Below, one piece after another: positions 30,008 through 50,937 of a stretch of 64,000 nt of DNA. Origin of the DNA: Polyangium mundeleinium. Lineage in GTDB: Bacteria; Myxococcota_A; Polyangia; Polyangiales; Polyangiaceae. Both the position numbers and the translations under genes were made by a program. The stretch is from contig NZ_JAQNDO010000001.1 of NCBI RefSeq assembly GCF_028369105.1, forward strand, positions 5,176,501 to 5,240,500. The letters run 5' to 3'. Each line of letters opens with the position of its first letter. Within the stretch, counting starts at the first letter, position 1. Below the pieces are notes generated by a model. That model did no database searches, had not been told where the DNA came from, and saw only the letters and a program-made list of their open reading frames with translations.

Positions 30008-30132
30008 GCGCCGGGGCGCTGCCCCGGTCCCCGCGGGGGCTGTTCGCCCCTCGACCCGAACCAGGCACGGCCTGGACCGAGGGTGGAAGAACTGCGCGGT
30101 GCGCAGTTCTTCCAGCGGGCCCGTGGCAAGAC
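30008..30132 (+). repeat. Four-hairpin intergenic element, copy A
   Basis: Copy A of a five-member family. Its four consecutive stem-loops are: stem 1 at 30011-30027 (CCGGGGC, 3-nt loop, GCCCCGG); stem 2 at 30036-30050 (GGGGC, TGTTC loop); stem 3 at 30061-30075 (CCAGGC/GCCTGG); stem 4 at 30085-30113 (perfect 13 bp, GGAAGAACTGCGC with 3-nt loop). The tail ends in CAAGACCA. It begins 25 nt after the stop of the kinase gene and on the same strand. No open frame in it is coding. Confidence 0.9.
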
Positions 30133-30184
30133 CATGGAGGTGGGTCTCAAGCGGGCGGCGTGCACGGCGTGCGCGATGAGCGGA

Positions 30185-30471
30185 GGGGGTCGACACGAAG
30201 CGACCCCCTCGGTGCACGATGACCAGCAGGGGTCGACACGAAGCGACCCCCTCGGTGCACGATGACCAGCGGGGGTCGACACGAAGCGACCCCCTCGGCG
30301 TAGGATGACCAGCGGGTGTCGACGCGAAGCGACCGCCGCGGTGCACGAGGACCGGCGGGTGTCGACACGAAGCGACCGCCGCGGTGCACGAGGACCGGCG
30401 GGTGTCGACACGAAGCGACCGCCGTGGTGCACGAGGACCGGCGGGTGTCGACACGAGGCGACCCTCTCGGG
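30185..30471. repeat. 43-bp tandem repeat array 1, about seven copies
   Basis: The core GTCGAC recurs at 30189, 30232, 30275, 30318, 30361, 30404 and 30447, exactly 43 bp apart. Copies 1-3 form a perfect hairpin (GGGGGTCG, 8-nt loop ACACGAAG, CGACCCCC). Copies 4-7 are a second subtype in which the arms changed to GCGGGTGTCG and CGACCGCC, which still pair with a small bulge. The linker between hairpins contains GGTGCACGA. Since 43 is not a multiple of three, the array cannot encode a peptide repeat. It fills the space between element A and the symporter gene; with element A it accounts for all of 29986-30520. Confidence 0.93.
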
Positions 30472-30520
30472 AGCGATCTTCCAAGCATCGAACCGGCCCA
30501 TGCTCTAGGACTCGTTTCCG

Positions 30521-31924
30521 TTGAGCACCGATCGCCTCGTCACCCTCCTCGTCGTCGCTGGCTACCTCCTCGCGCTGATCCTCGCCGGCGCCTACGTCAC
30601 CCGGCGATCGAAGGGCTTTTCCGATTACGTCACAGGCGGCGGCAAGATCCCCGCGTGGATGCTTGCCCTCTCCTTCATGGCGAACTTCGTCAGTTCGAAC
30701 TCCTTCGTCGGCCATGCGGGCAAGAGCTTCGAGGTCGGCCTCGGCTGGTGTGTCGTCGGCGGCTTCCTCGTCGTCGCCTGCGTGCTCTCCTTCCACCTCT
30801 TCGCCCCGCGCTTCGCCGAATTCGCCCGGACGAACGGCGCCCTCACGCTCCCGGACTTTTTCGAACGCCGCTTCGGATCCCGCCCCCTCGCGGTCTTCGT
30901 CCAGTGGATCGTCGTGGTCACGACCCTGCTGTACGTCCTCGCCGTCTTGCGAGGCACGGCCCTCGTCGTCGCGTCGGGCCTCGGCCTCTCGTATTCCGCG
31001 GCCCTGCTCGTCGTGTACTTCGTCACGATCGTCTATTGCCTGCTCGGCGGCTTATGGGCGGATGTGCTCACGGACGTCGTGCAATCGGTCGTCCTCCTCG
31101 GCGGCGCGGTCCTGCTCTTCGTCGCGGTCCTCTCCGCCTCGCCCGAGCCCTCGGCGCCCGCGCCTCCGCCGATTCGCCCCCTCTCCATCGCGCAGCTCGT
31201 CGCCGTTGGCCTCTCGGGCGCGGTAAAACTCGTCGCCGACCCCAAGCAGGTCATGGTCTTTTATGCCTTCGGCGACGGCGCGCAGGCCCGCCGCTTCCGG
31301 CACTTCGCGCCCCTCCTGCTCCTCCTCGTCCTCGGCTGCCTCTTCCCCGTCGGCTACTTCGCGCGCTCGCTCGTCCCCTTCGTGCGTGACGTCGACGAGG
31401 TCGTCCCTCGCCTCGTCTTCGAGCGGGGCCTCCTCGGCGCGGCCTTTGGCCCCATCTTCCTCGTCGCGCTCCTCGCGGCCTCGATGTCCTCGCTCGACTC
31501 CGCTTTGCTCGTCGTCGCCTCGTGCCTCGAAAAACACGTCGTCGCGCCGCTCGTCCGACGCGAGCCGAGCGAGCGCCGCACCCGCGTGATCCTCTTCCTC
31601 GTCGCGACCCTCGTCCTCCTCCTCTCCTTCCGCCCCCTCGGCGACATCGTCTCCCTCTCGACCCTCGCGGGCGCCCTCCTCGGCGCCTCGCTCCTGCCCC
31701 TCCTTTGTGTGGGCCTCTTCGGCCCGCCGATTCCCCCGCGTGTCGCGCTCGTCTCCCTCACGCTCGGCCTCGTGGGAGCCCTCGCCGGCAAGTTCGGTCC
31801 GGGAGCGTTCGGCCTCCGTTCGCCCTGGCTCCAGGACATTTTCGTCGGCCTCCTCCTCGCGACCTTGCCCCTCGCCGTCCATTGGGTCCGTCGCCCCCGC
31901 GTCTCCGCTTCCGTTCCCGGCTGA
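30521..31924 (+). CDS. Sodium:solute symporter family protein
   Basis: A 467-residue integral membrane protein of the SSS family (LeuT fold, Na+-coupled uptake of sugars, amino acids or organic acids). About 12-13 hydrophobic helices are visible. The first helices carry the typical AYVTRRSKGFSDYVTGGGKIPAWMLALSFMANFVSS region, and the conserved Na2-site helix appears as LAASMSSLDSALLVVAS near residue 325. The start is TTG 30521, with AGGA 10 bases upstream. The substrate cannot be deduced; no catabolic genes adjoin it. The promoter must lie within or before the 43-bp repeat array. Confidence 0.88.
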   Translation: MSTDRLVTLLVVAGYLLALILAGAYVTRRSKGFSDYVTGGGKIPAWMLALSFMANFVSSNSFVGHAGKSFEVGLGWCVVGGFLVVACVLSFHLFAPRFAEFARTNGALTLPDFFERRFGSRPLAVFVQWIVVVTTLLYVLAVLRGTALVVASGLGLSYSAALLVVYFVTIVYCLLGGLWADVLTDVVQSVVLLGGAVLLFVAVLSASPEPSAPAPPPIRPLSIAQLVAVGLSGAVKLVADPKQVMVFYAFGDGAQARRFRHFAPLLLLLVLGCLFPVGYFARSLVPFVRDVDEVVPRLVFERGLLGAAFGPIFLVALLAASMSSLDSALLVVASCLEKHVVAPLVRREPSERRTRVILFLVATLVLLLSFRPLGDIVSLSTLAGALLGASLLPLLCVGLFGPPIPPRVALVSLTLGLVGALAGKFGPGAFGLRSPWLQDIFVGLLLATLPLAVHWVRRPRVSASVPG

Positions 31925-32095
31925 TGGGCCCTCCGGCCGCGACGCATGGACGCGTCGCGTGGACGAAGCCCCCTTTTTCGCGGACGTAGAGCACGCGCGG
32001 AAATGCGAGAAAAGCCGCAGAACCGCCGTGGAGTTTCCATTTTTTGCGGGTCAGACTCTTCCCCGGAACACCTGACTTCTTTCTGGGGGGCTTAC

Positions 32096-33058
32096 ATGGA
32101 CACGAATCGAGCATTCGTGGCGGGTGCCGTGCTCGTGGCATGGGGTGCGCTCGCCGCGTGTCATGGCTCGGATAGGATCGAACAGAGAACGGGCCCCGGG
32201 GGTGCGTCGGAGGAGATCACCACGAGCACCGGCGGCAGCGTCGGCGCCGCGACCGTGGGACCTGGCGGAGCCGGTGAAATGGGCGGCGCGGGAGGCGAAA
32301 CGAGCGGAACCGGCGCGGGCGGCTCCATCGGTGAAGGTGGAAGCGGAAGCGCCGGCGGAGGCGGAAGCGGAAGCGCCGGCGGAAGCGGAGGCGTCGCCGC
32401 CGGCGGAGGCGGAGGCGCTGGCGGAATCGATCCCACCGGCGGCGGCGGTTTCGGCAGCGCATCGGCCGGCTGCTCTGCCGATCTCGACTGCAATGACTTC
32501 ATCGACTGCACCCACGACAAATGCGTCGCCGGCGAATGCAACCATGGTCCGGACAGCGCGAAGTGCGCCGACGAAAAGATTTGCAACGGCGTGGAGACCT
32601 GCGACCCGCAGCTCGGCTGCACCAGCGGCGCGCCCGTGAATTGCGATGACGGCATCCCCTGCACCTACGACCTCTGCCACGACCCGACCGGCACCTGCGT
32701 CCATTACCCGCAGGACAACCTCTGCGACGACGGCACCTTCTGCGACGGCGTCGAGGTCTGCGATCCGCTCCAGGGCTGCATCGAGGGCACGCCCGTCACG
32801 TGCAATGACGGCATCCCCTGCACCAACGACGTCTGCGACGAGCTGCTCGACACCTGCAAAGGCATCCCGGACCCTTCCCTCTGCCCCTGCAACCAGACCT
32901 GCGATCCGAGCCAGGGCGGCTGCGGCGACTTCTGCAAGGTCGCGACCTGCCAGGGCGAGGTCTACGCCTGCGGGGATTGCGTCGACAACGACGGCGACTG
33001 CAAGACCGACACGGCCGACGAACAATGCCTCGACCCCTGCGACGACACCGAGCAATGA
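32096..33058 (+). CDS. Cys-rich repeat lipoprotein
   Basis: A 320-residue surface lipoprotein; ATG 32096 follows a GGGGGG Shine-Dalgarno-like run and starts a lipoprotein signal (VLVAWGALAAC). A Gly/Ser linker of about 100 residues follows. The C-terminal 190 residues are packed with Cys in repeated units of the form CDDGIPCTYDLC, ICNGVETCDP, FCDGVEVCDP and CNDGIPCTNDVC. This matches the Cys-rich repeat found in many myxobacterial extracellular proteins, and all Cys are probably in disulfides. The last unit contains Asp-rich DNDGDCKTD, reminiscent of a calcium loop. The longer upstream frame (from 31946) lacks a signal and is not used. Confidence 0.85.
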   Translation: MDTNRAFVAGAVLVAWGALAACHGSDRIEQRTGPGGASEEITTSTGGSVGAATVGPGGAGEMGGAGGETSGTGAGGSIGEGGSGSAGGGGSGSAGGSGGVAAGGGGGAGGIDPTGGGGFGSASAGCSADLDCNDFIDCTHDKCVAGECNHGPDSAKCADEKICNGVETCDPQLGCTSGAPVNCDDGIPCTYDLCHDPTGTCVHYPQDNLCDDGTFCDGVEVCDPLQGCIEGTPVTCNDGIPCTNDVCDELLDTCKGIPDPSLCPCNQTCDPSQGGCGDFCKVATCQGEVYACGDCVDNDGDCKTDTADEQCLDPCDDTEQ

Positions 33059-33102
33059 CGGCGCCGCGCCCCGCCGCTTGCGCAACCTGATCGAACGGCC
33101 TT

Positions 33103-33139
33103 GCGCGATCTGTGCAAGGGCCTCTTGCGCAGATCGCGC
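33103..33139. terminator. Strong 16-bp hairpin after the Cys-rich lipoprotein gene
   Basis: Left arm 33103-33118 (GCGCGATCTGTGCAAG) and right arm 33124-33139 pair over 16 positions with a single G-T wobble and a 5-nt loop. It starts 44 nt after the lipoprotein stop. There is no T run on either side, so it is an atypical intrinsic terminator or an RNA-stabilising 3' structure. The rest of the gap to the TonB receptor gene shows only that gene's Shine-Dalgarno sequence. Confidence 0.55.
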
Positions 33140-33263
33140 GCCGTGAAACCCACTCCGCTCATGATCGCCTTCGTTTCTCGCGAGAATGCCCTCCGCGCCC
33201 GTGTGGCACGGTCGCTGCTCTTCGGGCCGTCGAGCCCGCGGGGCGGGCTCGAGGGAGGTCCAC

Positions 33264-36200
33264 GTGAGACGGCCGAATCGAGTATTTCTCCTCTGCGCGC
33301 CGGCCCTCGCCACGGCGATCGTCTGCTTCGGCAGCGATGCGCTCGCGCAGGGCGGTGCCACCGTGCAGGGCAAGGTCCTCAATGCCGCGACGAACCAGCC
33401 GGTCCCGGACGTCGTCGTCACGGCCACCTCGCCCGCGCTCCAGGGCGAGGAAATCGCCGTGACCGACAGGGCAGGCAATTACCGCATTCCGAGCTTGCCG
33501 CCAGGCGACTCGTACGTCATTCGCGCCGACGGCGGCAGCGGCTTCCGGCCTTTTGCCTCCAAGCCCTTCACGCTCCGCGCGGGCGGCACGGCGCTCGTCC
33601 AGATCCAGATCCTGCCCGAGACCATCGATTCCGGCATCGTGATCCTCGTGGAAGCCACGCCGCCCGTGATCGATTACACGACCGGCGTCAAGACCAGCGT
33701 CGGCCCCGAGTTCACCCGGCGCGTCCCGACGAACCCGCCCACCGGCAAAGGCGGCGCGACCCGCTCCTTCGAGGGCCTCGCCACCATCGCCCCCGGCACC
33801 TTCACGGACACCTACGGCGTCTCCGTCAATGGCACGACCTCCCCGGAGAACGGCTTCGTCATCGACGGCCTCTCCGCGAACGACGCCGCGTTCGGCATCC
33901 TCGGCACGCCGCTCTCCAGCGAGTTCGTCCGCGAGGTCAACGTCATCACGGCCGGCTATTTGCCCGAATATGGCCGCTCGATCGGCGGCGTCATGGATGT
34001 CGTCACGAAGAGCGGCTCGAACGCGTTCCACGGCTCCTTCTTCAGCGCCATCACGCCCGGCGCGCTCGAGGGCGAGCGCACCCGGATTCCACGCGCGGGA
34101 AGCACCATCCAGACGAACCCGAGCCTCGCGACCATCCAGGACATCGGCTTCGAGCTCGGCGGCCCCCTTCTGCGTGATCGACTCTGGTTCTTCACCGGCA
34201 TGAGCCTCGCGATCCAGAAGACGCGCCTCGAGCGCACGCTGAACAAGCTCCTCTACGTCGAAAACCCGGACGGCACGCCCGCCGTGGACTCCATGGGGAA
34301 CCCCATTCCGATCCGCGATTCCGAGACCGGGTTTCAGCAGACCTCGCTCCTGCCGGGGACGAAGACCACCCAGTACGCCACGAGCCGGACGTACCAGTAC
34401 ATCGGAAAGCTCACGTTCAAGGCCAACCAGGACCACAACATCTCGCTCTCGGTCTTCGGCGTGCCGCAGACCTCCGGCGGCAGCGGCGATTATCCGTTCA
34501 ACCTCCAGACCGGCGGCTCCGCGCCGAACCTGCAAGGGCCGTACTCGGCGTTCGGCGGGATCAACGAATCGTTCTCGAACAACGTCGTCCTGAAGACCTC
34601 CTCGTCCTTCAAGGACAAAAAGTACCTGCTCGATACGACGATCGGCTGGGTCTACGGTTCGGTCACCCAGGCCGCCGCCGACGGCAGCGGCGTCGCCGAC
34701 ATCGGCTCGCCGGGCACCATGGCGGGGATCCCGAACGTCGGGTGGCGCAGGTCCTCGGGCGGACGGTATCCGATCACCGAATTCGAGAACCTCCCGGCGG
34801 CCGCGCGCGAGGCGTGCGCGCCCGGCGGCAGCCAGGAGATCGCCGCGCTCTATTGCCCCGTCGTCAACTACGCCACGGGCGGCCCCGGCCTTTTGCGCGA
34901 GGCTTCTCAGAACCGCATCCAGGGCCGGGCCATCTTCACCGCGATCGGCAGCCTCCTCGGCCAGCACATCCTCAAGGCCGGCATTGATTTCGAGGCCCTC
35001 GATTACACCAGCGCCCGCGGCGTGAGCGGCGGCAATGCGTTCCGCGAGACCCCCGACGGCGCCTTTTTCCTCGACGCCCGCCGTTTCGGCTTCATGGAAG
35101 GCCCCGACCGCCCCGTCTTCTTGAACTCGTTCTCCACCACCTCGCGCTCCTATACCGTGGGCGGGTTCGTCCAGGATAGCTGGAACATCCTCGAGCGTGT
35201 CACGCTGAACCTCGGCGTCCGTTACGACGCGCAGGTCGTCACGGGCAATGACGGCCGCATTGGCATGACGCTCCCGAACCAGTGGTCGCCCCGCGTCGGC
35301 GTCATCTGGGATCCGACCCGAAAAGGCCGGGCCAAGATCTTCGGCAATTTCGCGCGGTTTTACCAGGCCATCACCCTGAACCTCGTCGACCGCTCCTTCC
35401 CCGGCGAGCTCCAGGTCTACTCCCTGCGCGGATCCAACGTCTGCGATCCGCGGGATCCCGCGCAGGTCCGCGGCGCTTGTGACGATCCGCAGAACCTCAC
35501 CACGATCACCGGAAACACCGATCCCACCCGGAAATTCGGCGCCACCGGCTCCGACCGTGTCCCGTCGATCCGGACATCAAGCCTCAGTCCTCCGACCAGC
35601 TCGTCCTCGGCGGCGAATACGAAATCTTCACCGGCGCGCGCATCGGCGGCGCGTACACCCACCAAACGCTCAACCATGCCGTCGAGGACATGAGCCGGGA
35701 CGAGGCGAACACCTACTTCATCGGAAACCCCGGCCACGGCATCGCCAAGGACTTCCCCGAGGCCGTCCGCGATTACGACTCCTTCATGATCTTCTTCGAG
35801 AAGGCATTCGCGAATCGCTGGCTCGCGCAGGCGAGCTACACCGCGGCGTACCTGCGTGGCAACCTCGCCGGCCTCTTCCGGCCCGAGACGCAGCAGCTCG
35901 ATCCGAACATCAACTCCGATTTCGATCTCATTTCGCTCCTGCCGAACCGCAATGGCCCGCTCCCCGGCGACCGCACCCACTCCATCAAGGTCTTCGGCGC
36001 CAAGGAGTTCATCCTGCCGGGCAACGTCAGCATCAGCGTCGGCGGCAGCTACACCGCCCGCTCGGGCACGCCCATCAACGTCCTCGGCGCGCACCCGCAA
36101 TACCTCACGGGCGAGGTCTTCATCTTGCCGCGCGGCGAAGGCGGCAGGACGCCGTGGGTCCATTCGATCGACACGAACGTCACGGCCGGCTTCCAGCTCG

Positions 36201-36466
36201 GCAAGGACAAGAGCGTGACCTTCGGCGTCGACATCTTCAACATCTTCAACTTCCAGGCCGTGACCGGCGTCGATTCGAATTACACGTTCGCCGACGTCCG
36301 CCCCATTGCCGGCGGCACCATGGACGACCTCCCGGCGGCGAAGGGCAAGCTCGTGTACTGGGACGGCAAGCCCTTCGACGACGTCGACAAGAACCCCAAT
36401 TTCGGCAACCCCAACGGATTCCAGCTCCCGAGGCAGGTCCGCTTCAACGCGCGGGTCACCTTCTGA
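33264..36466 (+). pseudogene. TonB-dependent receptor (Oar-like), frameshifted
   Basis: An outer-membrane TonB-dependent receptor of about 1065 residues, broken by a one-base frameshift. It starts at GTG 33264, preceded by GGGAGG, with signal peptide VFLLCAPALATAIVCFGSDALAQ. The N-terminus is a carboxypeptidase-regulatory-like domain (VQGKVLNAATNQPVPDVVVT), then a plug (ENGFVIDGLSANDAAFG, YGRSIGGVMDVVTKSG) and a large barrel ending in Phe (RFNARVTF). After residue 765 the frame goes out of register at CCC 35561-35563. Inserting one C restores the family sequence (PVDPDIKPQSSDQLVLGGEY) in the frame that ends at 36466. The unrepaired frame stops at 35693. It may be a true lesion or a sequencing error. 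Confidence 0.85.
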
Positions 36467-36489
36467 GCGCGCTGACGAGGAGACGAACC

Positions 36490-37293
36490 ATGAAGAAACG
36501 TCATTCCTTCCTCGCCGTCGCGGCCCTCGGCCTCGGCCTCGGCTCGTTCGGCGGCGCCTCGTGCTCGCAGCCCCCGATCCAGTGCGTCGTCGGGCACGGG
36601 CCGTTCATCGCGAAATACACGCTCGTCTCGGGCACGGGCTCATGCGCCGACCTCGTCGGCGAGGAGATCGGCGTCTCCACGTTCCTCGCGCCCAACGAAG
36701 ATCGGACCCTCGCCGATTACGACAAGCGCAGCATCGCCGTCCAGTCCGACACGTTCGGCGGCCTCGTCCGGGAGCGCGAGGGGCTCGGGGCAGGGGAGGA
36801 TGACATCCCTTATGCGCTCGGTGCGTACACGACGAACCCCGACGAGAAGGATCTCTGTTTTGCCGGGGGCGCGGCCGGCACCGCCGCGCTCGCGGCCGCC
36901 GAGCTCGATCTCCCGCAGGCCGAGATCATGGACGCCATGGGAAACCCCGTCACGTTGCCCGCCAAACGGCTCCGACAGACCTGGGAGAACCTCTCCGTGT
37001 ACGTGACCGCCGCCGCGCCGGGCACGCAGATGGTCGGCACGATGACGTACGAGGACCTCATGGAGGGCTGCTCGGCGACGTACACCTTCGTCGCGCTCTT
37101 CCCGGCGGTCCATTGCGCGAAGGCGGACGCCGACGGCAAGCCCACGGACGAGCCGGACGACGCGCTCTGCGCTACAAAAGGGAATGCCGCCGAGGGCGTC
37201 CAGCCCTCCGGGATCAACCCCGATTACCGCGTGAAATGTGATCCCACGCTGCTCTATTGTGTCCTCGACGAGACCCCGCGCGCCGCGCCCTGA
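36490..37293 (+). CDS. Lipoprotein paired with the TonB receptor
   Basis: A 267-residue lipoprotein. ATG 36490 follows GAGGAG and starts a signal ending in GSFGGASC. I do not recognise the domain: it has several Cys and a beta-rich middle (IGVSTFLAPNEDRTLADYD, WENLSVYVTAAAPGTQMVGTMTYEDL). It begins 23 bp after the receptor stop, on the same strand, so it is probably the receptor's outer-membrane partner, as in SusD-like or other receptor-lipoprotein pairs; it does not look like SusD itself. It ends 3 bp before the end of the convergent channel gene. Confidence 0.75.
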   Translation: MKKRHSFLAVAALGLGLGSFGGASCSQPPIQCVVGHGPFIAKYTLVSGTGSCADLVGEEIGVSTFLAPNEDRTLADYDKRSIAVQSDTFGGLVREREGLGAGEDDIPYALGAYTTNPDEKDLCFAGGAAGTAALAAAELDLPQAEIMDAMGNPVTLPAKRLRQTWENLSVYVTAAAPGTQMVGTMTYEDLMEGCSATYTFVALFPAVHCAKADADGKPTDEPDDALCATKGNAAEGVQPSGINPDYRVKCDPTLLYCVLDETPRAAP

Positions 37294-37296
37294 TCC

Positions 37297-39987: not shown

Positions 39988-40045
39988 CACGCCCGAGCAT
40001 AGACCCCCGGACGGCCGTGTTTCCAGCGGCCTTCGCGCGCCTCCG

Positions 40046-40891: not shown

Positions 40892-40921
40892 GATTCCTTG
40901 CATCTCCAACGGGTTGGTCGT

Positions 40922-42355: not shown

Positions 42356-42473
42356 GACACACTTCTCCCGGCACGCGCCGGACGCCCGGCGCGTGGAAAC
42401 ATCGCCCCTCGGGCGCTCGCGAGGGGGAGCGCGCGGGGCGACGAACGTCAGTGGCGCACGTCTACGGACGAGC

Positions 42474-42503
42474 AGACCGTTCGGTCTAAATGACGTAGCG
42501 TCA
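42474..42503. promoter_or_regulatory. Paired palindromes upstream of the glutaredoxin fusion gene (possible TetR-type operator)
   Basis: A perfect 14-bp palindrome, AGACCGTTCGGTCT (42474-42487), has the form of many TetR-family operators. Three bases later comes a second inverted repeat, TGACG-TAG-CGTCA (42491-42503). Both lie 44-73 bp before ATG 42547, where a repressor or activator would act, and also about 120 bp from the divergent vWA gene start. No TetR gene is in the window. Confidence 0.5.
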
Positions 42504-42546
42504 CGTTTCGAGACGTGCGACAGTCCCGACCGATCGAGGGAAACAG

Positions 42547-43482
42547 ATGAATCTCAGTGAACCGCTCAAGCAGCGTATCGAGGCGCTCGTCCGGTCCGAC
42601 CGCGTCGTGCTCTTCATGAAGGGCTCTCGCCGATTTCCGCAATGCGGGTTCTCCGGCGCCGTCGTGCAGATCCTGGACGCGGTGCTGCCCAGCTACACGA
42701 CCGTGAACGTCCTCGAAGATCCCGAGATTCGCGAGGGCATCAAGGCCTACGCGAGCTGGCCCACGATCCCGCAGCTCTACATCGACGGCGAGTTCGTCGG
42801 CGGGGCCGACATCATCCGGGAGATGCGTGAGAGCGGCGAGCTCGCGCAGAAGCTCGGCGGGTCTGCGGGCGGCGGCAGCGAGGTCAAGGCGCCGAAGATC
42901 ACGATCAGCGAGGCGGCCAAGCGCGCGTTCACCGAGGCCGCGGCCGACGCGCCGGGCGAGCTGCTCCGCTTCGAGGTGAGCCCGCGCTTCGAGTATGGGC
43001 TGTTTTTCGGGCCGCGCGCCGAGGGCGACCTCGAGGTCGACGCGGGGGGCCTCACGGTCCTCGTCGACCCGACGAGCGCGCGCCGGGCCGACGGCGTCTC
43101 CATCGATTTCGTGGACGGCCCCGAGGGCGCCGGCTTCCGGATCGAGAACCCGAACGAGCCGCCGCGCGTCCGTCAGCTCTCCGTGCGCAAGCTGAAGGAG
43201 ATGCTCGACGCGGGCGAGCGCTTCGAGTTCGTCGACGTCCGCACCGACAAAGAGCGCGCCATTGCGCGGATCGAGCAGGCGAAGCTCCTCGATCAGGCCG
43301 AGCTCGAGCGTCTCGAAGCGCTGCCCAAGGACACGCCCATCGTCTTCCATTGCCACCACGGCGGCCGCAGCCGCTCGGCGGCCGAGGCGTTCGTGGGGCG
43401 AGGTTTTTCCAAGGTATACAACCTCGAGGGGGGCATCGACGCCTGGTCGGTCGCGGTGGATCCCTCGGTTCCGCGGTATTGA
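42547..43482 (+). CDS. Monothiol glutaredoxin / IscA-like / rhodanese fusion protein
   Basis: A 311-residue three-domain protein. Residues 1-105 are a Grx4-type monothiol glutaredoxin with the CGFS active site (FPQCGFSGAVV), WPTIPQLYIDGEFVGG and the terminal helix. These proteins bind and pass on 2Fe-2S clusters with glutathione. Residues of about 115-210 have the fold pattern of A-type carriers (ITISEAAKRAFTE, GFRIENPN) but none of their three Cys. Residues of about 215-311 are a rhodanese with active-site loop CHHGGRSRS, Cys retained. ATG 42547 follows GAGGG. It is 21 bp upstream of bolA, the well-known partner of Grx4 proteins. Confidence 0.9.
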   Translation: MNLSEPLKQRIEALVRSDRVVLFMKGSRRFPQCGFSGAVVQILDAVLPSYTTVNVLEDPEIREGIKAYASWPTIPQLYIDGEFVGGADIIREMRESGELAQKLGGSAGGGSEVKAPKITISEAAKRAFTEAAADAPGELLRFEVSPRFEYGLFFGPRAEGDLEVDAGGLTVLVDPTSARRADGVSIDFVDGPEGAGFRIENPNEPPRVRQLSVRKLKEMLDAGERFEFVDVRTDKERAIARIEQAKLLDQAELERLEALPKDTPIVFHCHHGGRSRSAAEAFVGRGFSKVYNLEGGIDAWSVAVDPSVPRY

Positions 43483-43503
43483 CGAATTTCGGAGGAAGCG
43501 CGC

Positions 43504-43764
43504 GTGTCCTACCACATGACCACGTTCCAGGGCTCGATCCCGGCGGCGATCGAGCAGGCCATCAAGGAAAAGATCAGCGACGCCGTGGTGGAGGTGCAGG
43601 GCGGGGGAGGGCATTTCGAGATCTCCGTCACCAGCGTCGTCTTCGCGGGCAAGAACACGCTGGAGAAGCACCGCCTCGTCCTCGGCGCGATCGCGCACCT
43701 CATGGCAGGCAACGACGCCCCCGTCCACGCCGTCGACAAGCTGAATACCCGCGTCCCCTCCTGA
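43504..43764 (+). CDS. bolA: BolA family protein
   Basis: An 86-residue BolA/IbaG-type protein. The family core is visible: VVEVQGGGGHFEISVTSVVFAGK, then LEKHRLVLGAIAHLM with the conserved His. The start is GTG 43504, after GGAGG (43491-43495). BolA proteins form 2Fe-2S-bridged heterodimers with CGFS glutaredoxins, and this gene directly follows such a glutaredoxin (21-bp gap), which strongly suggests a joint role in iron-sulfur trafficking. Element B starts 7 nt after its stop. Confidence 0.92.
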   Translation: MSYHMTTFQGSIPAAIEQAIKEKISDAVVEVQGGGGHFEISVTSVVFAGKNTLEKHRLVLGAIAHLMAGNDAPVHAVDKLNTRVPS

Positions 43765-43768
43765 CGCC

Positions 43769-43893
43769 GCGCCGGGGCGCTGCCCCGGACCCCGCGGGGG
43801 GCTGTCCGCCCCCTCGACCCCGGACCAGCGAGGCGCTGGACCCAGGGTTGAAAAACTGCGCTCCGCGCAGTTTTTCAAACAGGCCGACGAAGA
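43769..43893 (+). repeat. Four-hairpin intergenic element, copy B
   Basis: Same architecture as copy A. Stem 1: 43772-43788 (CCGGGGC/GCCCCGG). Stem 2: 43797-43813 (GGGGGC, TGTCC loop, GCCCCC). Stem 3: 43825-43839 (CCAGCG/CGCTGG, against CCAGGC/GCCTGG in A). Stem 4: 43848-43878, perfect 14 bp (TTGAAAAACTGCGC). It begins 7 nt after the bolA stop, same strand, and forms an inverted pair with copy C. The spacer 43900-43940 is itself an imperfect inverted repeat (TTGCCAGCCGAACC against GGTTGGCAG). Confidence 0.9.
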
Positions 43894-43951
43894 ACCCAGG
43901 TTGCCAGCCGAACCAGCCGCGCGGCTGTCTCGGTTGGCAGGGTCGCTGCCG

Positions 43952-44080
43952 ATCTTGACCGGGCCTGTTCGATGAACTGCGCATCGCGCAGTTCATCGAG
44001 CTTGGGTCCAGCCCCTGGCTGGTCCGGGTGCAGGGGCGGACAGCCCCTGCTGGGGCCTGGGGCAAAGCCCCAGCGAGGCG
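43952..44080 (-). repeat. Four-hairpin intergenic element, copy C (inverted)
   Basis: Minus-strand copy. Stem 4: 43969-43999, 14 bp (TCGATGAACTGCGC). Stem 3: 44008-44022 (CCAGCC/GGCTGG). Stem 2: 44030-44050, perfect 8 bp (GCAGGGGC, loop, GCCCCTGC). Stem 1: 44057-44073 (CTGGGGC/GCCCCAG). With copy E it forms a subtype that has T-A instead of C-G in stem 1 and an ATGGGTCTC box outside stem 1. It is the only copy not placed just after a same-strand stop; it lies in front of the amidohydrolase start. Confidence 0.9.
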
Positions 44081-44127
44081 GCTTCACGAGGAGACCCATG
44101 CGACCCCGCGCTGCTAGAGTGGGCGCG

Positions 44128-45828
44128 ATGTTCCGAAGCGCCTTCTTCGCGGCGACCCTCGCGCCCCTGGCCCTCGGCTGTGGGGCTTCCCCCGCGCCCG
44201 CCCCGCAATCACGACCTCCCGCGGATTTCGTGTTCCTGGGCGGCGCCGTCCGCACGATGGATCCGGCGCGCCCCGAGGCCAGTGCGATCGCCGTGCGGGG
44301 CGATCGAATCGTCGCGGTCGGCACGGATGCCGAGGTCGGCTCGTTCATCGGGCCGGAGACCCGCGTGGAGCGGCTCTCCGGCCGCGCCGTGATCCCCGGC
44401 CTCGTCGACGGCCATTGCCACCTCCACGGCCTCGGCGCCGCGCTCGAGAGCCTCGACGTGCGCGGCAAGAAGAGCCCCGAGGACGTCGCCCGGCTCGTCG
44501 CGGCCGAGGCAAAAGGCCGCGCCTCGGGCGAATGGATCACCGGCCGCGGCTGGGATCAAAATCTTTTCACTCCCGCCGCGTTTCCCACGCACGCCCCGCT
44601 CGACGCCGCAGTCCCCGATCACCCCGTCGCGCTCACCCGCATCGACGGTCACGCTCTATGGGCCAACGCGGCGGCCCTGCGCCTCGCCGGCATCGATGAA
44701 AAGACCACCGATCCCCCGGGCGGCCGCATTCTACGTGACGCGGCCGGCGCGCCCACCGGCGTCTTCATCGACAATGCGATGGATCTCGTCACGGCGAAGA
44801 TCCCCGGCGAACCACCCGAGGTGACCGAGCGCCGCATCCTGCGCGCCTCCGAACGCGCTCTTTCGCTCGGGCTCACGGGCGTGCACGAGATGGGCATCGA
44901 CGACGCGACCGTCGCTGTCTACCGCAAGCTCGCGGCCGAGGGCCGGCTCCCGATCCGCGTGGTTGCCTATCTGGCGGGCGGGCCGAACCTCTCCGCCTTG
45001 TCGCAACGAAAACCCGACATCGACCCGCAAGGCACGTCCATGTTCGTCCTGCGCGGGGTCAAGCTCTTCGCCGACGGCGCCCTCGGCTCCCGCGGCGCCA
45101 CGCTCCTCGCGCCCTACGCCGACGAGCCGAAGAGCGTGGGCATTTCGATCACGGACCGGAAAACCCTCACCGAATCGGCGCATATCATCGCCGACGCGGG
45201 ATTCCAGCTTGCGGTGCACGCCATCGGCGACCGCGCCAACCGCGACGTGCTCGACGCCTTCGCCGCCCTCGGCGAGGGCCGGGCGCGCGCGCTTCGTTTT
45301 CGTATCGAGCATGCGCAGGTCCTCGCGCCCGAGGATCTTCCGCGGTTCGCCGCGCTCGGCGTCCTCGCCTCCATGCAGCCGACCCACGCCACGAGCGACA
45401 TGCCCTGGGCCCCGGCGCGCCTCGGCCCCGACCGTCTGCGCGGCGCGTATGCCTGGCGCTCGCTGCTCGACAGCGGGGCGCGTCTCGTCTTCGGCTCCGA
45501 TTTCCCTGTCGAAGAGCCCTCGCCCCTCCTCGGCCTGTGGGCCGCCGTCAGCCGCCAGGATCCCTCGGGCGCCCCGCCGGGCGGCTTCTTGCCCGAGCAA
45601 CGCATCACCCTCGACGAGGCGCTCGCCGCCTTTACCGCGGGCCCGGCCTACGCCTCCTTCACCGAGGCCACCCACGGCCGCATCGCCCCCGGCTACGTCG
45701 CCGATCTGACCGTCTTTGCCGGGGCCCTCGCCGCGGATCGATCGCTGCTCGACGCGAAGATCGACCGCGTGATCCTGGGCGGCAAGGTGGCGTTCGGCGC
45801 CGCGATCCCGAAACCGGAGGCCCCGTGA
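44128..45828 (+). CDS. YtcJ-like metal-dependent amidohydrolase, lipoprotein
   Basis: A 566-residue amidohydrolase of the YtcJ/amidohydrolase-3 group. ATG 44128 gives a lipoprotein signal (LAPLALGC), so it is anchored in the envelope. Metal-site motifs in order: VIPGLVDGHCHLHGLG (HxH), LAVHAIGDRANRDVLDAF, RIEHAQ, and the final Asp in FGSDFPVEEPSPLLG. The N- and C-terminal beta strands of the composite sandwich are present (FVFLGGAVRTMD, GYVADLTVFA). Substrates in this group are poorly known. The stop overlaps the next gene by 4 bp (GTGA). Confidence 0.9.
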   Translation: MFRSAFFAATLAPLALGCGASPAPAPQSRPPADFVFLGGAVRTMDPARPEASAIAVRGDRIVAVGTDAEVGSFIGPETRVERLSGRAVIPGLVDGHCHLHGLGAALESLDVRGKKSPEDVARLVAAEAKGRASGEWITGRGWDQNLFTPAAFPTHAPLDAAVPDHPVALTRIDGHALWANAAALRLAGIDEKTTDPPGGRILRDAAGAPTGVFIDNAMDLVTAKIPGEPPEVTERRILRASERALSLGLTGVHEMGIDDATVAVYRKLAAEGRLPIRVVAYLAGGPNLSALSQRKPDIDPQGTSMFVLRGVKLFADGALGSRGATLLAPYADEPKSVGISITDRKTLTESAHIIADAGFQLAVHAIGDRANRDVLDAFAALGEGRARALRFRIEHAQVLAPEDLPRFAALGVLASMQPTHATSDMPWAPARLGPDRLRGAYAWRSLLDSGARLVFGSDFPVEEPSPLLGLWAAVSRQDPSGAPPGGFLPEQRITLDEALAAFTAGPAYASFTEATHGRIAPGYVADLTVFAGALAADRSLLDAKIDRVILGGKVAFGAAIPKPEAP

Positions 45829-46100
45829 CGAACCTCGTCCTTCGCGTGCTCCTCTTCCTCGCCCTCGGATTCGCGCTCGGCTGGGCGCATGCCAAGGCCA
45901 TTGCCGAGGGCGAGCGAATTCACCGCGAGACGGGGGAGCGCGCGCGCCCCACGATCATCTTCGTCCTCCGCCTCGTCCTCCTTTGCGTCGGGTTTGGCTT
46001 GATTGGAAAATCCGGCTCCATGCCGCTCCTCGCCTCCCTCCTCGGATTTGTCGTCGCGCGGCTCGTACGCCGCCGTGGCGTGAAGCTGCCACAAAGTTGA
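45825..46100 (+). CDS. Small membrane protein, AtpR-like
   Basis: A 91-residue membrane protein with three hydrophobic segments: LVLRVLLFLALGFALGWAHA, ARPTIIFVLRLVLLCVGFGLIG and MPLLASLLGFVVARLV, ending in RRRG. The order and the Arg in the second segment resemble AtpR, the small subunit of N-type ATPases, but no ATPase gene is nearby, so the call is tentative. Translation starts at GTG 45825, overlapping the amidohydrolase stop by 4 bp (GTGA), which implies coupling. Confidence 0.65.
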   Translation: MTNLVLRVLLFLALGFALGWAHAKAIAEGERIHRETGERARPTIIFVLRLVLLCVGFGLIGKSGSMPLLASLLGFVVARLVRRRGVKLPQS

Positions 46101-46194
46101 CACGCCGGCCGCAATCGAATCCTTCTGTACGGCAGCCCCGGATCGTTCTAAGGAACGGTCGCTGGGGAGGGGTCCTATCCATCGATGGGGGAGA

Positions 46195-47478
46195 ATGGAC
46201 GTCCAGGAAATGCAGCGGTTGCAAGAGGAGGTCGAGCGGCTTCGCGCGCGCGTGACCGAGCTCGAGGCGGCGCTCGAGGCCGCGAAGCACCGCGCGGACC
46301 TCTACCAGGCATTCTTCGAGCATTTGCCCGTCCCGGCCGGCGTCCATGACGCCGAGGGGTGGCTCGTCGAGATCAACCGAGTCGATCGGGAAATGCTCGC
46401 CATCCCCTCGCGTGAGCTCGTCGTCGGCAAACACAACCTGTTCCAGGACCCGGAGGCCGTGGCCCGGGGGTATGCCGCGCACCTCGAGCGGGCCCTGCGT
46501 GGGGAGGCCGTGCTCATGCCGCCCACCTCGTACGATACGGCGGAGGCGGGGATCGAGCGCACCGAGGATCGGAAGGTCTGGACGCAGACCTCGTTCCAGC
46601 CCGTCGACGTCCACGGAAAGCGGTACACGGTCGAGGTGAACCTCGACGTGACCGAGCGGCTCCGGGCGCAACGCGCGCTGGAGGAGAGCCAGCGGTTCTT
46701 GCTCGAGATCGTCGAGAACGCGCCCTCGCTCATGTACGCGAAGGATCTCGCGGGCCGTTATGTGCTCGTCAACGGCCAGGTCGAGCGTTTCGCCCGGATG
46801 GACCGCGCGCATCTGCTCGGCAAGACCGACGCGGAGCTTTTTCCGTCCGGGATCGCGCAGAAGTACACGGCCTCGGATGCCGAGGTGCTCCGGACCGGCC
46901 AGGCGATCGTGCGGGACGACGTGATCCCCCTCGAAAACGGCGTCGCCACGTTCGTCACCACGAAATTCCCCCTCCGGGACGCCGAGGGCAAACCCATGGC
47001 CGTGTGCAGCATCTCGGTCGACGTCAGCGAGCAAAAGGAAGCCGAGGCGTGCGCGCGAAAGCTCCAGGAGGAAATGCTGCACCTTCAGGATGCCACGCTC
47101 CGCGCCCTCTCGACGCCGCTCCTGCCGATCGCCGAGGGCGTCGTGGTGATGCCGCTCATCGGCAACATCGACGCCCGCCGCGCCGATCAGGTGCTCGAGA
47201 CGTTGCTCCCCGGCATCGCGGAGAACCAGGCGTCGATCGTCATCCTCGACGTCACGGGCGTGCCCGTCGTCGACGAGCACGTCGCCAGCGTCCTCGTGCA
47301 GGCCGCGCGCGCGGTCGAGCTGCTCGGGGCCGAGATCGTCTTGACGGGCATTCAGCCGGCGATGGCTCGCACCCTCGTCGAGATCGGCGCCGACCTCGGA
47401 CGCATGCGCACCCGGAGCACCCTCCAGGGCGGCATCGCCCTCGCGCTCGGCCGCGGCGCGATGCGCGTCAAACGTTAG
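46195..47478 (+). CDS. RsbR-like PAS-PAS-STAS protein
   Basis: A 427-residue stressosome-type regulator. A coiled coil of about 35 residues opens the protein (QEEVERLRARVTELEAALEAA). PAS domain 1 spans about residues 40-160, PAS domain 2 about 165-285 (APSLMYAKDLAGRYVLVNG), and the STAS domain about 300-425 (LRALSTPLLPIAEGVVVMPL, ILDVTGVPVVDEHVASVL, LTGIQPAMARTLVEIGADL). The residue matching the phosphorylated Thr of RsbR (VVDT) is Glu. ATG 46195 follows GGGGGAGA. An imperfect palindrome, GATCGTTC-TAAG-GAACGGTC (46141-46160), lies upstream. Its stop overlaps the convergent ferritin-like gene by 4 bp. Confidence 0.88.
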   Translation: MDVQEMQRLQEEVERLRARVTELEAALEAAKHRADLYQAFFEHLPVPAGVHDAEGWLVEINRVDREMLAIPSRELVVGKHNLFQDPEAVARGYAAHLERALRGEAVLMPPTSYDTAEAGIERTEDRKVWTQTSFQPVDVHGKRYTVEVNLDVTERLRAQRALEESQRFLLEIVENAPSLMYAKDLAGRYVLVNGQVERFARMDRAHLLGKTDAELFPSGIAQKYTASDAEVLRTGQAIVRDDVIPLENGVATFVTTKFPLRDAEGKPMAVCSISVDVSEQKEAEACARKLQEEMLHLQDATLRALSTPLLPIAEGVVVMPLIGNIDARRADQVLETLLPGIAENQASIVILDVTGVPVVDEHVASVLVQAARAVELLGAEIVLTGIQPAMARTLVEIGADLGRMRTRSTLQGGIALALGRGAMRVKR

Positions 47479-48443
47479 TTCGTCTCCTTCGCGGAGAGCG
47501 CCTCGTTGGCCATTTCCTCGTACGTCATGCGCCGGACGCGCGTGAGCTCCTTGTCGTCGTATTGCCGGGCCATGAACTCCTTGCCCACGCCTCCGACGCG
47601 GCCGAACAGATCGCCGAGCAGCCTGCCCGTGATCGGGTGATCGACCCCGTCCTGCAAGAGCCGCAAGAACCGCGTGAACGGCCGCCGCGGCGTCTCCTCC
47701 TTCCGCCCGAGGAGCTGCATCCGCTTGAACGCGTCCCGCAGCCGTTTGCCCTCGGGATCGACGAAGTTCATCGGATCGAGGAACACGTCGCGGATGAACG
47801 GATGCGCGGAATGCAGCATGAACACGAACGCCTTCGCGCCCCGGGCCCGCTCCGCGAGCGAGAGCTTCGTCTGGCGCTCGGCCATCCGCCGCTCGTACGC
47901 CTCGGACCCGTAATACTCGGCCATGTAGTAGTCGATCGCGATGTGGCGCGACTCGTCGCGGTTGATGAGCGTCATCGCCGCCTGGCTCATCTCGTCGTGC
48001 ACGAAATCGTTGATCGACCGGAGCAGCGCGATGTCCAGGATGAGCTCCCCGGCCACGATGTACGCGTTCGCCACGTCGTCGCTCAGATAATGGATCGCGT
48101 CCACGAAATGAGGCGCGAACGCGGTCAGGCTCGGGCTCTGTCGATACAGCTTGTAATGGTGCACGTCATAAAAGTCCGCGAGCATCTGCGCCGCGTGCGC
48201 GTGCCGCACCTCGTCGACCACGAACGACCGGAAGATCGCCTTCAGCGTCGGATCCTCCACGCGTCGCTCCTGCTCGCGGAAGAGCGCGCCCGCGAGCCGC
48301 TCGATCCCCGACATGTCCGTGAAGAGCTGCACGATCGCGATCTCGTCCTCCCGCGACATGGCCCGGGCCTTCCGACTCCAGTCGAGGTCGCCGACGCGCC
48401 ACTGATCACGCCGGCAGTTCTCCAGCATCCGTTCGAGGTCCAT
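47475..48443 (-). CDS. Ferritin-like diiron protein, 322 aa
   Basis: An all-helical protein of the ferritin-like superfamily. Two ExxH metal motifs are visible, DEVRHAHAAQ (near residue 78) and RDESRHIAIDY (near residue 163). Glu residues in GIERLAGALFREQE and GELILDIALL could complete a two-iron site. This helix order fits diiron oxygenases of the AurF/DUF3066 kind better than iron-storage ferritin. The C-terminal 100 residues are basic and not recognised. It is convergent with the PAS-STAS gene and divergent from the small Pro-rich gene. Confidence 0.78.
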   Translation of the reverse strand: MDLERMLENCRRDQWRVGDLDWSRKARAMSREDEIAIVQLFTDMSGIERLAGALFREQERRVEDPTLKAIFRSFVVDEVRHAHAAQMLADFYDVHHYKLYRQSPSLTAFAPHFVDAIHYLSDDVANAYIVAGELILDIALLRSINDFVHDEMSQAAMTLINRDESRHIAIDYYMAEYYGSEAYERRMAERQTKLSLAERARGAKAFVFMLHSAHPFIRDVFLDPMNFVDPEGKRLRDAFKRMQLLGRKEETPRRPFTRFLRLLQDGVDHPITGRLLGDLFGRVGGVGKEFMARQYDDKELTRVRRMTYEEMANEALSAKETN

Positions 48444-48535
48444 GCCCGCCAGGATACCCGTCGTTATCGGCCCGGTAAAGCGCCCGACCGAGGAGGCACA
48501 CGCGCCCGGGGCACCAGGCTTGCGTTCGTCGGGGC

Positions 48536-48781
48536 ATGACCATCACCGTAACGGAGGAAAAATCGCCCCATGGTCCGTCCAAGCGACCCGAGGCGCCGCC
48601 GCCGGCCGAAGACCCCCGCATCCGCAAGGGGCCGATCGAGGAGCCCCGCATCCGCAAGGGCCCGATCGAGGAGCCACCCGCGCCGAGCCCGGTCCCCGGC
48701 GAGCCGCCGCCCGCGCCGCCCGTCATCCGGGATCCTCCGGCGCCTACCCAGAAACCGGACGAGGTGATCCGGGTCGCCTGA
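48536..48781 (+). CDS. Small Pro/Glu-rich protein with internal duplication, 81 aa
   Basis: A short frame starting at ATG 48536. It is rich in Pro and charged residues and holds two copies of the unit PRIRKGPIEEP, encoded by an exact or near-exact 30-bp direct repeat at about 48612-48672. It should be disordered. There is no membrane segment or known domain and no strong Shine-Dalgarno sequence. Third-position GC is high, consistent with coding, but a non-coding GC-rich frame cannot be excluded. It lies 60 bp before the Ser/Thr kinase gene on the same strand. Confidence 0.5.
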   Translation: MTITVTEEKSPHGPSKRPEAPPPAEDPRIRKGPIEEPRIRKGPIEEPPAPSPVPGEPPPAPPVIRDPPAPTQKPDEVIRVA

Positions 48782-48841
48782 ACGCGAAGCGCGCACGAGC
48801 ACCTTGATGCCGCGGATGTCCTTCGGGCATCATCCGGTCCC

Positions 48842-50530
48842 ATGCGCACGGGAGACGTCGTTGACGGACGCTTCGCCATTCTGGAGCGCGCCGGCGTCGG
48901 CGGCATGGGATCGGTGTACCGAGCGCTCGATCGGCAGACGACGAAGCTCGTCGCGATCAAGGTCCTCCACGCGCCGGACATGACCTCGCAGGCCCGCTTC
49001 CTCAAGGAGGCCAAGGCCCTCGCGGGGCTCGAGCACCCGCACGTCGTCCGCTACGTGACGCACGGCATCTCGTCCGAAAGCGAGCCTTACCTCGTGATGG
49101 AGTGGCTCGAAGGCGAGAGCCTCGATCGGCGCCTCGCCCGCGAGCCGTTGCGCCTCGAAGAGAGCCTCGACTTCGCGCGTCGTGTCGCCGTGGCCCTCGG
49201 CGCCGCCCACGCGCGCGGCATCGTCCACCGCGACGTCAAGCCGAGCAACGTCTTCCTCGTCGACGGCGCAATCGACAAGGTCCGCCTCCTCGATTTCGGC
49301 ATCGCTCGCCTCGACGACGCGTCGAGCGGCCTCACCCGCACCGGCAACGTCCTCGGCACCCCCGGGTACATGGCGCCCGAGCAAGCGCGCGGCGACAAAC
49401 GGTACGTCGACGCCCGCGCCGACGTCTTCTCGCTCGGCTGCCTCCTCTACGAATGTTTGGCGGGCCAACCGCCTTTCCACGGCCCGCACCCGATGGCCAT
49501 CATCACGAAGCTCCTCGCCGAGGACGCGCCGCGGCTGCGGTCGAGCCGGCACGACGTCCCCGAGGCCCTCGACGCCCTCGTCGCCCGCATGCTCGCCAAG
49601 GAGCCCGGCGCACGCCCCACGGACGGCGCCGCCGTGGCCGCCGCGCTCGACGCCCTTTCCAACATGAAGAGCGTCGAGCCCCCGCCGCCCTCCATCCGCT
49701 CCCGCACGTATGCGGACGTCTTCCCGTCGATCCCACCCTCGGCCCCGCCCTCCTCGGACCCGACGCTCGGCATGGCGGCGACGATGCCCGGCCTCTCCTC
49801 GCTCCGCGAGCTCTCCGAGTCCGCGAGCCAGCGCCCCTCGTCGCCGCCGCCCGAGCCTCGATCGAGCCGCATGGTCGATCTCCCGCCGCCGAGCGTCTCT
49901 CCCGCGAGTGATCGTCGCTGGTTCGAGCGTCTGCCGCGCCCGGCAGGCCGGAGCCCGTTCCGGGTGAAGGGCATCGCCTACAAGGGCATGCTCCATTATG
50001 TCTCGACGCGCCTCGACGGCGGGATGCAGTCGCTCACGAATACGTTCCGTGATCCGATCCTGCGCGAATACCTCGCCCAGCCGTTCCTCGCGTCGAGCTT
50101 CTACGATTTCTTCCCGCTCGTCGCAGCGAGCGCCGGGTGCGCCTCGCTCGCGAACGTGCAGCTCGAGATCTTCGCGCAAGGCCAGGGCCGCGCGCAGGCG
50201 AAGTACGACGCGGACCACGCGTATCGTTCGTTCGTCCAGGGCCGCTCGATCGACGATTTCCCCTCGCGCTTCCGCCTCATCGCCCAGCGGTATTACGATT
50301 TCGGCGAATGGGAGGCGAACTCGTTCTCGCCAGGCACGATCACGTTCGTGCAGCGGGGCATCCCAGCGTGGGCCATTCCCTGGTACTCCCCGCTGCAATC
50401 AGGCTACATCTCGACGCTCGTCGACCTCGTGTCGCACAAGCGCACGTCCGTGACCGTCTACCCGACCCGCCGCGACGGCGTGATCGAGGGCATCCAGACA
50501 GTCATCCTCGAAATGGACGTCTCGTACTGA
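48842..50530 (+). CDS. Soluble Ser/Thr protein kinase with C-terminal myxobacterial domain
   Basis: A 562-residue kinase without a membrane segment. The kinase domain covers about residues 8-275: GVGGMGSVYRA, Lys in VAIKVLHA, HRDVKPSNVFL, DFGIARL, GTPGYMAPEQARG. A Ser/Pro-rich linker follows. From about residue 372 a distinct domain of about 190 residues begins (VKGIAYKGMLHYVSTRL, ANVQLEIFAQGQG, RGIPAWAIPWYSPLQSGY, ending ILEMDVSY). Its layout loosely resembles the myxobacterial DUF2378/TIGR02265 domain, whose function is unknown; this is low confidence. ATG 48842 is the natural start. Element D begins 33 nt after the stop. Confidence 0.9.
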   Translation: MRTGDVVDGRFAILERAGVGGMGSVYRALDRQTTKLVAIKVLHAPDMTSQARFLKEAKALAGLEHPHVVRYVTHGISSESEPYLVMEWLEGESLDRRLAREPLRLEESLDFARRVAVALGAAHARGIVHRDVKPSNVFLVDGAIDKVRLLDFGIARLDDASSGLTRTGNVLGTPGYMAPEQARGDKRYVDARADVFSLGCLLYECLAGQPPFHGPHPMAIITKLLAEDAPRLRSSRHDVPEALDALVARMLAKEPGARPTDGAAVAAALDALSNMKSVEPPPPSIRSRTYADVFPSIPPSAPPSSDPTLGMAATMPGLSSLRELSESASQRPSSPPPEPRSSRMVDLPPPSVSPASDRRWFERLPRPAGRSPFRVKGIAYKGMLHYVSTRLDGGMQSLTNTFRDPILREYLAQPFLASSFYDFFPLVAASAGCASLANVQLEIFAQGQGRAQAKYDADHAYRSFVQGRSIDDFPSRFRLIAQRYYDFGEWEANSFSPGTITFVQRGIPAWAIPWYSPLQSGYISTLVDLVSHKRTSVTVYPTRRDGVIEGIQTVILEMDVSY

Positions 50531-50560
50531 AGTCCCGCGAGCGCTGAGCAGGGGGCCGTC

Positions 50561-50688
50561 GCGCCGGGGCGCCGCCCCGGACCCCGCGGGGGCTGTTCGC
50601 CCCTCGACCCGAACCAGCGCAAGCGCTGGACTCGGGGTCGATGAACTGCGCTCTGCGCAGTTCATCGAACAGCCGCAGTCAAGACCAG
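50561..50688 (+). repeat. Four-hairpin intergenic element, copy D
   Basis: Stem 1: 50564-50580 (CCGGGGC/GCCCCGG). Stem 2: 50589-50603 (GGGGC, TGTTC loop). Stem 3: 50614-50629 (CCAGCGC/GCGCTGG). Stem 4: 50638-50668, perfect 14 bp (TCGATGAACTGCGC), followed by the CAAGACCA tail. It begins 33 nt after the kinase stop on the same strand. With copy E it accounts for most of 50531-50937; the 80-nt spacer between them shows nothing else. Confidence 0.9.
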
Positions 50689-50767
50689 CCACGACCCTGC
50701 CCACCAGGACCGCAGCGCTGACGGCTCGATCGGCAACGCCCCGTCACCAGCTAGACATGCACGTCCG

Positions 50768-50900
50768 TGGTCTTGTCACGGGCCCGTTGGAAGAGCTGCG
50801 CGGAGCGCAGCTCTTCCACCAAAGGTCCAGGGCTGGCCCTGGTCCGGGTCCCGGGGCGGACAGCCCCGGGTGGGGCCTGGGGCAACGCCCCAGCGCAGCG
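50768..50900 (-). repeat. Four-hairpin intergenic element, copy E (inverted)
   Basis: Minus-strand copy. Stem 4: 50788-50818, 14 bp (TGGAAGAGCTGCGC). Stem 3: 50827-50842 (CCAGGGC/GCCCTGG). Stem 2: 50850-50870, perfect 8 bp (CCCGGGGC/GCCCCGGG). Stem 1: 50877-50893 (CTGGGGC/GCCCCAG). The ATGGGTCTC box shared with copy C lies just outside stem 1. It begins 44 nt after the stop of the chlorite dismutase-like gene on the same (minus) strand. Its tail is nearly identical to that of copy A (CGGGCCCGTG then CAAGACCA). Confidence 0.9.
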
Positions 50901-50937
50901 CCCCCAAGATGAGACCCATGCTCAGGGCTCGGCTTGA

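Follow-up and report, generated by a model that had tools for sequence, protein, structure and literature searches.

The hairpin repeats in the window, as the whole 64-kb stretch of DNA analysed here is called, are very probably members of a non-autonomous MITE family of Polyangium. By its ends, the family is placed in the IS4/IS50 group. This assignment is made because the elements share their ends with an IS of that group, carry target duplications, occupy palindromic targets, and lie at sites that are empty in related genomes. Prokaryotic MITEs are short, apparently non-coding sequences with terminal repeats and target duplications, present in high copy number between genes. An earlier note on this DNA had hesitated between a folded 3' RNA and a palindromic mobile element; the MITE half of that suggestion is now backed by terminal repeats and target duplications, by sites found empty, and by a candidate transposase. 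The family is known in kind and new in form: its eight-hairpin build, its partly terminator-like palindromic targets, and its hairpins that outlast the ends set it apart.

Five copies, A to E, had been described as separate repeats with a common order of hairpins. On re-reading the sequence, all five were found where they had been placed, and the stems and compensatory changes claimed for them are correct. What falls is their independence. Copy A is a solo half, a half being the four hairpins S1-S4; B with C, and D with E, each make up one inverted-repeat element of 310-340 bp, or composite (two inverted halves plus spacer). The original boundaries also end before the terminal repeats, and the right tail of E reaches 50925 (Table 1). 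Composite DE sits between convergent predicted genes.

Table 1. Hairpin elements and terminal repeats in the window
Feature	Position	Strand	Details
Copy A, solo left half S1-S4	30008..30132	+	about 21 bp past the stop codon of the predicted gene ending at 29985
Composite BC	43769..44080		left half B 43769-43893 (+), spacer, right half C 43952-44080 (-)
Right terminal repeat of BC, decayed	44089..44101	-	read on the minus strand: GCATGGGTCTCCT; outermost CTGA altered
Composite DE	50561..50900		left half D 50561-50688 (+), spacer of about 80 bp, right half E 50768-50900 (-)
Terminal repeat of DE, 19 bp, intact	50907..50925	-	read on the minus strand: CTGAGCATGGGTCTCATCT

BLAST and profile searches recovered the same layout of left half (+), spacer, and right half (-), bounded sharply on the outside. 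In the DNA examined from this genome and its relatives, composites occupy 68 distinct places, compared with 33 for solo halves. The gaps between halves fall into three size groups: around 53 bp as in BC, around 81 bp as in DE, and a long type of 484-717 bp. Full-length copies, mostly of 350-392 bp, carry the 19-bp repeat CTGAGCATKGGTCTCATCT at their ends, and the longest copies have a common 32-bp tail outside stem 1. Among the eleven MITE copies with a target duplication, ten fall in this size range and one is 1,011 bp. Long copies of about 0.7-1 kb (L014, L016, L020, L021, L025, and L027) contain at least two unrelated interiors, made up largely of short repeats. The idea that the long (about 1 kb) composites are coding carriers was rejected: their interiors, as far as listed, look like tandem repeats and hold no consistent frame, and what frames there are we judge to be overlapping GC-rich frames without a consistent reading. 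Next to solo half A lies a 43-bp tandem repeat of seven copies with a palindromic core (30169-30470 of the window).

The copies first noticed are a small sample. An exact pattern for the half occurs 179 times in this genome (G000; 13.25 Mb), where a covariance-model search scored at least 150 candidates, all matching. The same pattern occurs 37, 214, 264, 206, and 293 times in five other Polyangium genomes, G001 to G005 respectively (G002, Polyangium sp. 6x1; G003, P. fumosum DSM 14668; G004, sp. y55x31; G005, sp. 15x6), and 0 times in the four outgroup genomes tried (G028, G024, G036, and G048); its reversed control gave 0 matches in all ten. Run with strict filters on 59 genomes, the covariance model matched six of six Polyangium and, weakly, one of the 53 others, a genome of the same family (best E 9e-5). 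A GTDB scan returned at least 80 loci, and all genomes among the matches listed are Polyangium. No Rfam family reaches its gathering score in the 64-kb window, and nothing on this hairpin family was found in the open-licence literature of PubMed Central, in line with the earlier remark that no named family was known to have this layout. Among the matches listed (at least 150), the copies in G000 gather in the half of the chromosome opposite dnaA (11.65 Mb), with a peak at 5-8 Mb and none at 0-1 or 11-13.2 Mb; two of 18 spaced 20-kb samples of this genome hold copies (at 4.5 and 8.0 Mb).

Comparison of species reveals sites with and without the element. The BC site is occupied in P. fumosum and empty in G002, G004, and G005; the DE site is occupied in G002 and G003 and empty in G001 and G004. 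At the site of copy A, the element is absent from G002, and G003 has a full composite followed by an A-type S3-S4. (In G004, this site holds different DNA with several hairpins.) Altogether, 19 of the 200 composites whose DNA was compared have an empty counterpart in another species. A GC-rich hairpin was found at the insertion spot of at least three empty sites, and some empty sites in relatives have no obvious replacement.

The ends tell of insertion as well. The outer 15 bp of the terminal repeat, CTGAGCATKGGTCTC, allowing one mismatch, match 36 times in G000 compared with once for the reversed control, and 11, 34, 70, 18, and 48 times in G001 to G005 compared with 0. A target duplication is present at 15 of 48 end pairs (11 MITE, 4 IS), against 0, 0, 0, 1, and 0 at shifted offsets; the 48 include some chance or nested pairings, and 33 are without a duplication. 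Fourteen of the duplications are 9 bp long (four with one mismatch) and one is 10 bp. The rebuilt targets are palindromic, with a mean score of 8.47 versus 6.45 at random intergenic positions of G000, a value reached by 0 of 20,000 resamples, even with three of the 15 targets scoring below the random mean. Palindromic targets have been noted for Tn5, in portions of two papers (PMC2266710, PMC1525189).

Only 20 of 192 ends near genes retain the terminal repeat (at most three mismatches), so that most copies cannot be linked directly to the Tn5-like transposase described below. Same-site copies show partial deletions of the tail. A tie between loss of the repeat and a facing stop codon was considered and found unsupported (repeat kept at 14 of 153 versus 6 of 39 ends, P = 0.25).

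Following three of the terminal-repeat matches revealed an IS of 1,504 bp whose open frame encodes 475 aa. At 17-19 of 19 positions, the ends of this IS agree with the consensus of the MITE ends, and from position 20 they diverge; past the ends, IS and MITE have no visible likeness. The frame matches the Pfam families Tnp_DNA_bind (1.1e-11), DDE_Tnp_1 (5e-7), and Dimer_Tnp_Tn5 (2.2e-6), and its best match among solved structures is Tn5 transposase (1mus, 4.5e-36). It also holds a YREK motif, YSQRWRIEDFFRTWK, in agreement with Y(2)R(3)E(6)K, given as a hallmark of the IS4 family in a section of PMC2266710. The IS end CTGAGCACTGGTCTCATCT agrees with the IS50-subgroup consensus CW------Y---CA-A--W- at six of seven set positions (T, not A, at 14). 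The length of the IS and the 9-bp duplication lie within the ranges that the same section gives for that subgroup, 1,350-1,550 bp and 8-9 bp (PMC2266710). The partner IS resembles IS50/Tn5 in its transposase domains, YREK motif, and CT ends, and differs in its end sequence, its nesting in stem 3, and the large non-autonomous family that has its ends.

Because ends, duplication, and target agree, we infer that the Tn5-like transposase moves the MITE in trans, presumably by cut-and-paste. Intact copies of the IS number four in G000 and one in G002 (84% identity); elsewhere among G001 to G005, which are draft genomes as G000 is not, there is an edge fragment in G003, remnants in G001 and G005, and nothing in G004. 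Relatives of the transposase (E 1e-20) occur in nine further genera searched, and the hairpin element was not found there. The outcome for Polyangium is a MITE family that is defined and recently mobile, paired with a candidate Tn5-like transposase, which opens its movement to direct testing.

Three of the four IS copies with a duplication lie in stem 3 of hairpin elements. An IS4-family member, ISRm22, inserts in REP palindromes at their symmetry axis, according to part of PMC1525189. The partner IS likewise sits in a palindrome; unlike it, ISRm22 makes 6-bp duplications, and its REP targets are not described as its own derivatives in that part of the paper (PMC1525189). Stem 3 of a hairpin copy also holds a cassette of 2,090 bp (L462:538-2627; G000 C1, about 6.314 Mb), bounded by the ends that IS and MITE share and with the duplication GGCACGGCC. 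The 421-aa frame of the cassette has no Pfam match, and the whole looks like a mobile insertion cassette. A tyrosine recombinase frame between ends at 6555169 and 6558015 was set aside as a partner, since no target duplication is present there.

Where the element sits relative to genes raises the question of function. With genes placed by a simple home-made codon-based caller, 0 of 117 sites (0 of 20 in 460 kb, 0 of 97 further) lie inside predicted genes, and at 102 (19 of 20 and 83 of 97) a stop codon is no more than 50 bp away. Two of the 20 sites belong to a single element interrupted by the IS, and the 97, from which sites less than 1 kb from a locus end were excluded, come partly from loci picked for holding the element and include cross-species sites that are not all independent. 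Nine of the 20 and 64 of the 97 lie between convergent genes, versus 0 and seven between divergent genes, and convergence is enriched relative to the remaining gaps of the same loci (P = 6e-24). At 108 of 153 ends facing a gene 3' end, stem 1 begins 0-30 nt past the stop codon.

Such positions are what would be expected of a primarily functional RNA or terminator, in which the transcript 3' end needs the hairpins and mobility is incidental or past. Judged from sequence, this is a serious possibility, though we lean somewhat against it. Stem S4 has a GC core and a U-rich 3' arm, with at least four T in the seven nucleotides after GCGCAG in 180 of the 415 halves counted (of 485); the RNA fold of BC has a z score of -13.75; and in same-site copies the stems are better conserved than the spacer. 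Several observations fit poorly, however. A good U-run accompanies only part of the S4 alleles, and a simple terminator scan came out without copies B to E. The best fold of the whole composite is a single long duplex between the left and right halves instead of eight hairpins. Hardly any G-U intermediates are seen on the element strand in S1, S3, and S4, and the empty sites, some of them without an obvious substitute, also count against a required transcript end.

The pairing itself is striking. Under a four-stem model of 36 copies, 96.6% of cells are paired; the covariation score is 0.222, compared with 0.080 in shuffles and 0.032-0.064 in slid versions, and both sides have changed in 109 cells compared with 39.5 in shuffles. 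A phylogenetic null was built as a home-made stand-in for R-scape, in which inferred column changes are dropped randomly on a tree of 110 diverse halves. Against this null, four of 19 variable structure pairs reach E<0.05, above all 93,000 null pairs, and seven reach E<0.1; seven of the ten strongest pairs overall are structure pairs. The non-structure pairs 40/55 and 94/95 (S4 loop) also exceed the null maximum. By this home-made measure, the covariation reported earlier is genuine and surpasses phylogenetic expectation at part of the pairs.

How the pairs change is informative. Cells with G-T and A-C number 3 and 11 of 3,179 in S1, 0 and 7 of 2,865 in S3, and 4 and 34 of 6,435 in S4. A test for an RNA strand, comparing G-U with A-C, accordingly found no excess of G-U in these three stems. 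In S2, there are 203 G-T versus 16 A-C, at outer pairs with alignment-register ambiguity; the 263 cells of other kinds in S3 are mostly of the same ambiguous sort.

Copies at the same site in different species add a time dimension. Eight pairs at least 88% alike were counted, and 14 of 22 were excluded as under 0.88, a choice that favours conserved pairs. In these eight, 28 of 1,115 stem bases changed (2.5%), 24 of them in 12 compensatory pairs and four singly, compared with 95 of 730 spacer bases (13%) and 27 of 48 in the S4 loop. The four single changes in 1,115 stem bases also contrast with 22 in 512 bases of loops 1-3 and linkers of the same halves. The S4 loop triplets differ in 11 of 16 same-site comparisons, eight at all three bases; these loops are drawn from few common alleles, which combine with different arms. 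As a separate matter, flipping one copy improves the fit in seven of the 22 same-site pairs (for example, DE of the window versus L120:11347), either by inversion via the inverted halves or by independent insertion at the same spot.

Whole hairpin alleles seem to be exchanged between copies. Exchange at the DNA level, in addition to selection on RNA or in its place, is indicated by the near-absence of G-U intermediates and by the changes in blocks, and for the same reasons (few G-U or A-C intermediates, apparent allele exchange) covariation alone does not prove RNA function. The earlier conclusion that selection acts on structure therefore survives in part: pairing has been kept in same-site copies since the species split, but with hardly any G-U or A-C intermediates.

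Taken to its limit, exchange would dispense with selection altogether. Template switching and gene conversion among hundreds of copies would keep the palindromes perfect, and paired changes would be copied in one step. We find this plausible, if a little less than evenly balanced. One-sided changes are rare; the unpaired S4 loop triplets turn over far faster than the spacer; loop columns covary among themselves, and loops and arms occur in many combinations; and compensatory changes that are linked within one element (L300, L290) resemble swapped alleles. The scarcity of single stem changes relative to loops 1-3 and linkers is unexpected from whole-half conversion alone, although template switching could give it. 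A warning follows: strong covariation in a high-copy palindromic repeat can stem from exchange of palindromic alleles, not from RNA function.

That these are REP/BIME-type palindromes spread by a RAYT (Y1, IS200-like) transposase is highly improbable: high copy number, intergenic position, and palindromes in inverted pairs would fit, but PF01797 (Y1_Tnp) has 0 matches in G000 (the control search was positive in five of 14 named genomes), which leaves REP in the strict sense, a part of the original proposal, unsupported, and 19-bp terminal repeats with 9-bp duplications suit a DDE transposase. Pneumococcal SPRITE elements have terminator-like hairpins and are nested in one another, as an extract of PMC10969869 describes. 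With REP/BIME and SPRITE the Polyangium element shares its character as a palindromic intergenic repeat; unlike them, it is longer and has DDE-type terminal repeats and duplications, and no RAYT gene was found in G000. It is like the prokaryotic MITEs treated in the same extract (PMC10969869) in being short and apparently non-coding, with terminal repeats, duplications, and many intergenic copies, and unlike them in its eight hairpins in two inverted halves, its 3'-end bias, and its hairpins that outlast the terminal repeats.

The reading preferred here, a MITE family served by a Tn5-like transposase, suggests a life history for the element. The transposase (IS4 family, IS50 group) of the 1.5-kb IS would move elements that share its 19-bp ends. 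Insertion is into palindromes, which in several cases are terminator-like hairpins near stop codons, and duplicates 9 bp. Afterwards, as copies at shared sites show, the terminal repeats decay and the four hairpins of each half remain paired, whether by selection, by exchange of hairpin alleles between copies, or by both. Finally, the retained hairpins might come to act, between genes, as the transcript 3' end in both directions, a step to which we give close to an even chance on the strength of sequence features. A bidirectional terminator is our best guess at function, since the elements sit at gene 3' ends and the S4 core is flanked by A/U; the location may merely reflect target choice and the loss of harmful insertions. 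A bolder version is rather unlikely: the family would land in the native terminators of convergent pairs and become the host's two-way transcript end, dropping its ends, keeping its hairpins, and staying uniform by allele exchange, so that hundreds of gene ends would share one mobile, concertedly evolving cassette. Either way, Polyangium is a natural setting in which to ask whether bacterial terminators can be replaced by mobile hairpins across a genome.

A sister element is present in G028, a genome of another genus of the family, where the model gives 98 weak matches (E up to 1). Its loci (L066, L072, L078, L084, and L106-L111) are excluded from all counts above, for which the profile score cut varied between scripts from 32 to 60 bits. 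Nine of these loci have no clear gene 3'-end bias, and a search of G028 at E 1e-20 gave no IS50-like transposase. In the sister element, stems 1-3 are laid out alike: CTGGGGC..GCCCCAG, ACCCC, a GC-rich stem, and CCGGCAAG..CTTGCCGG.
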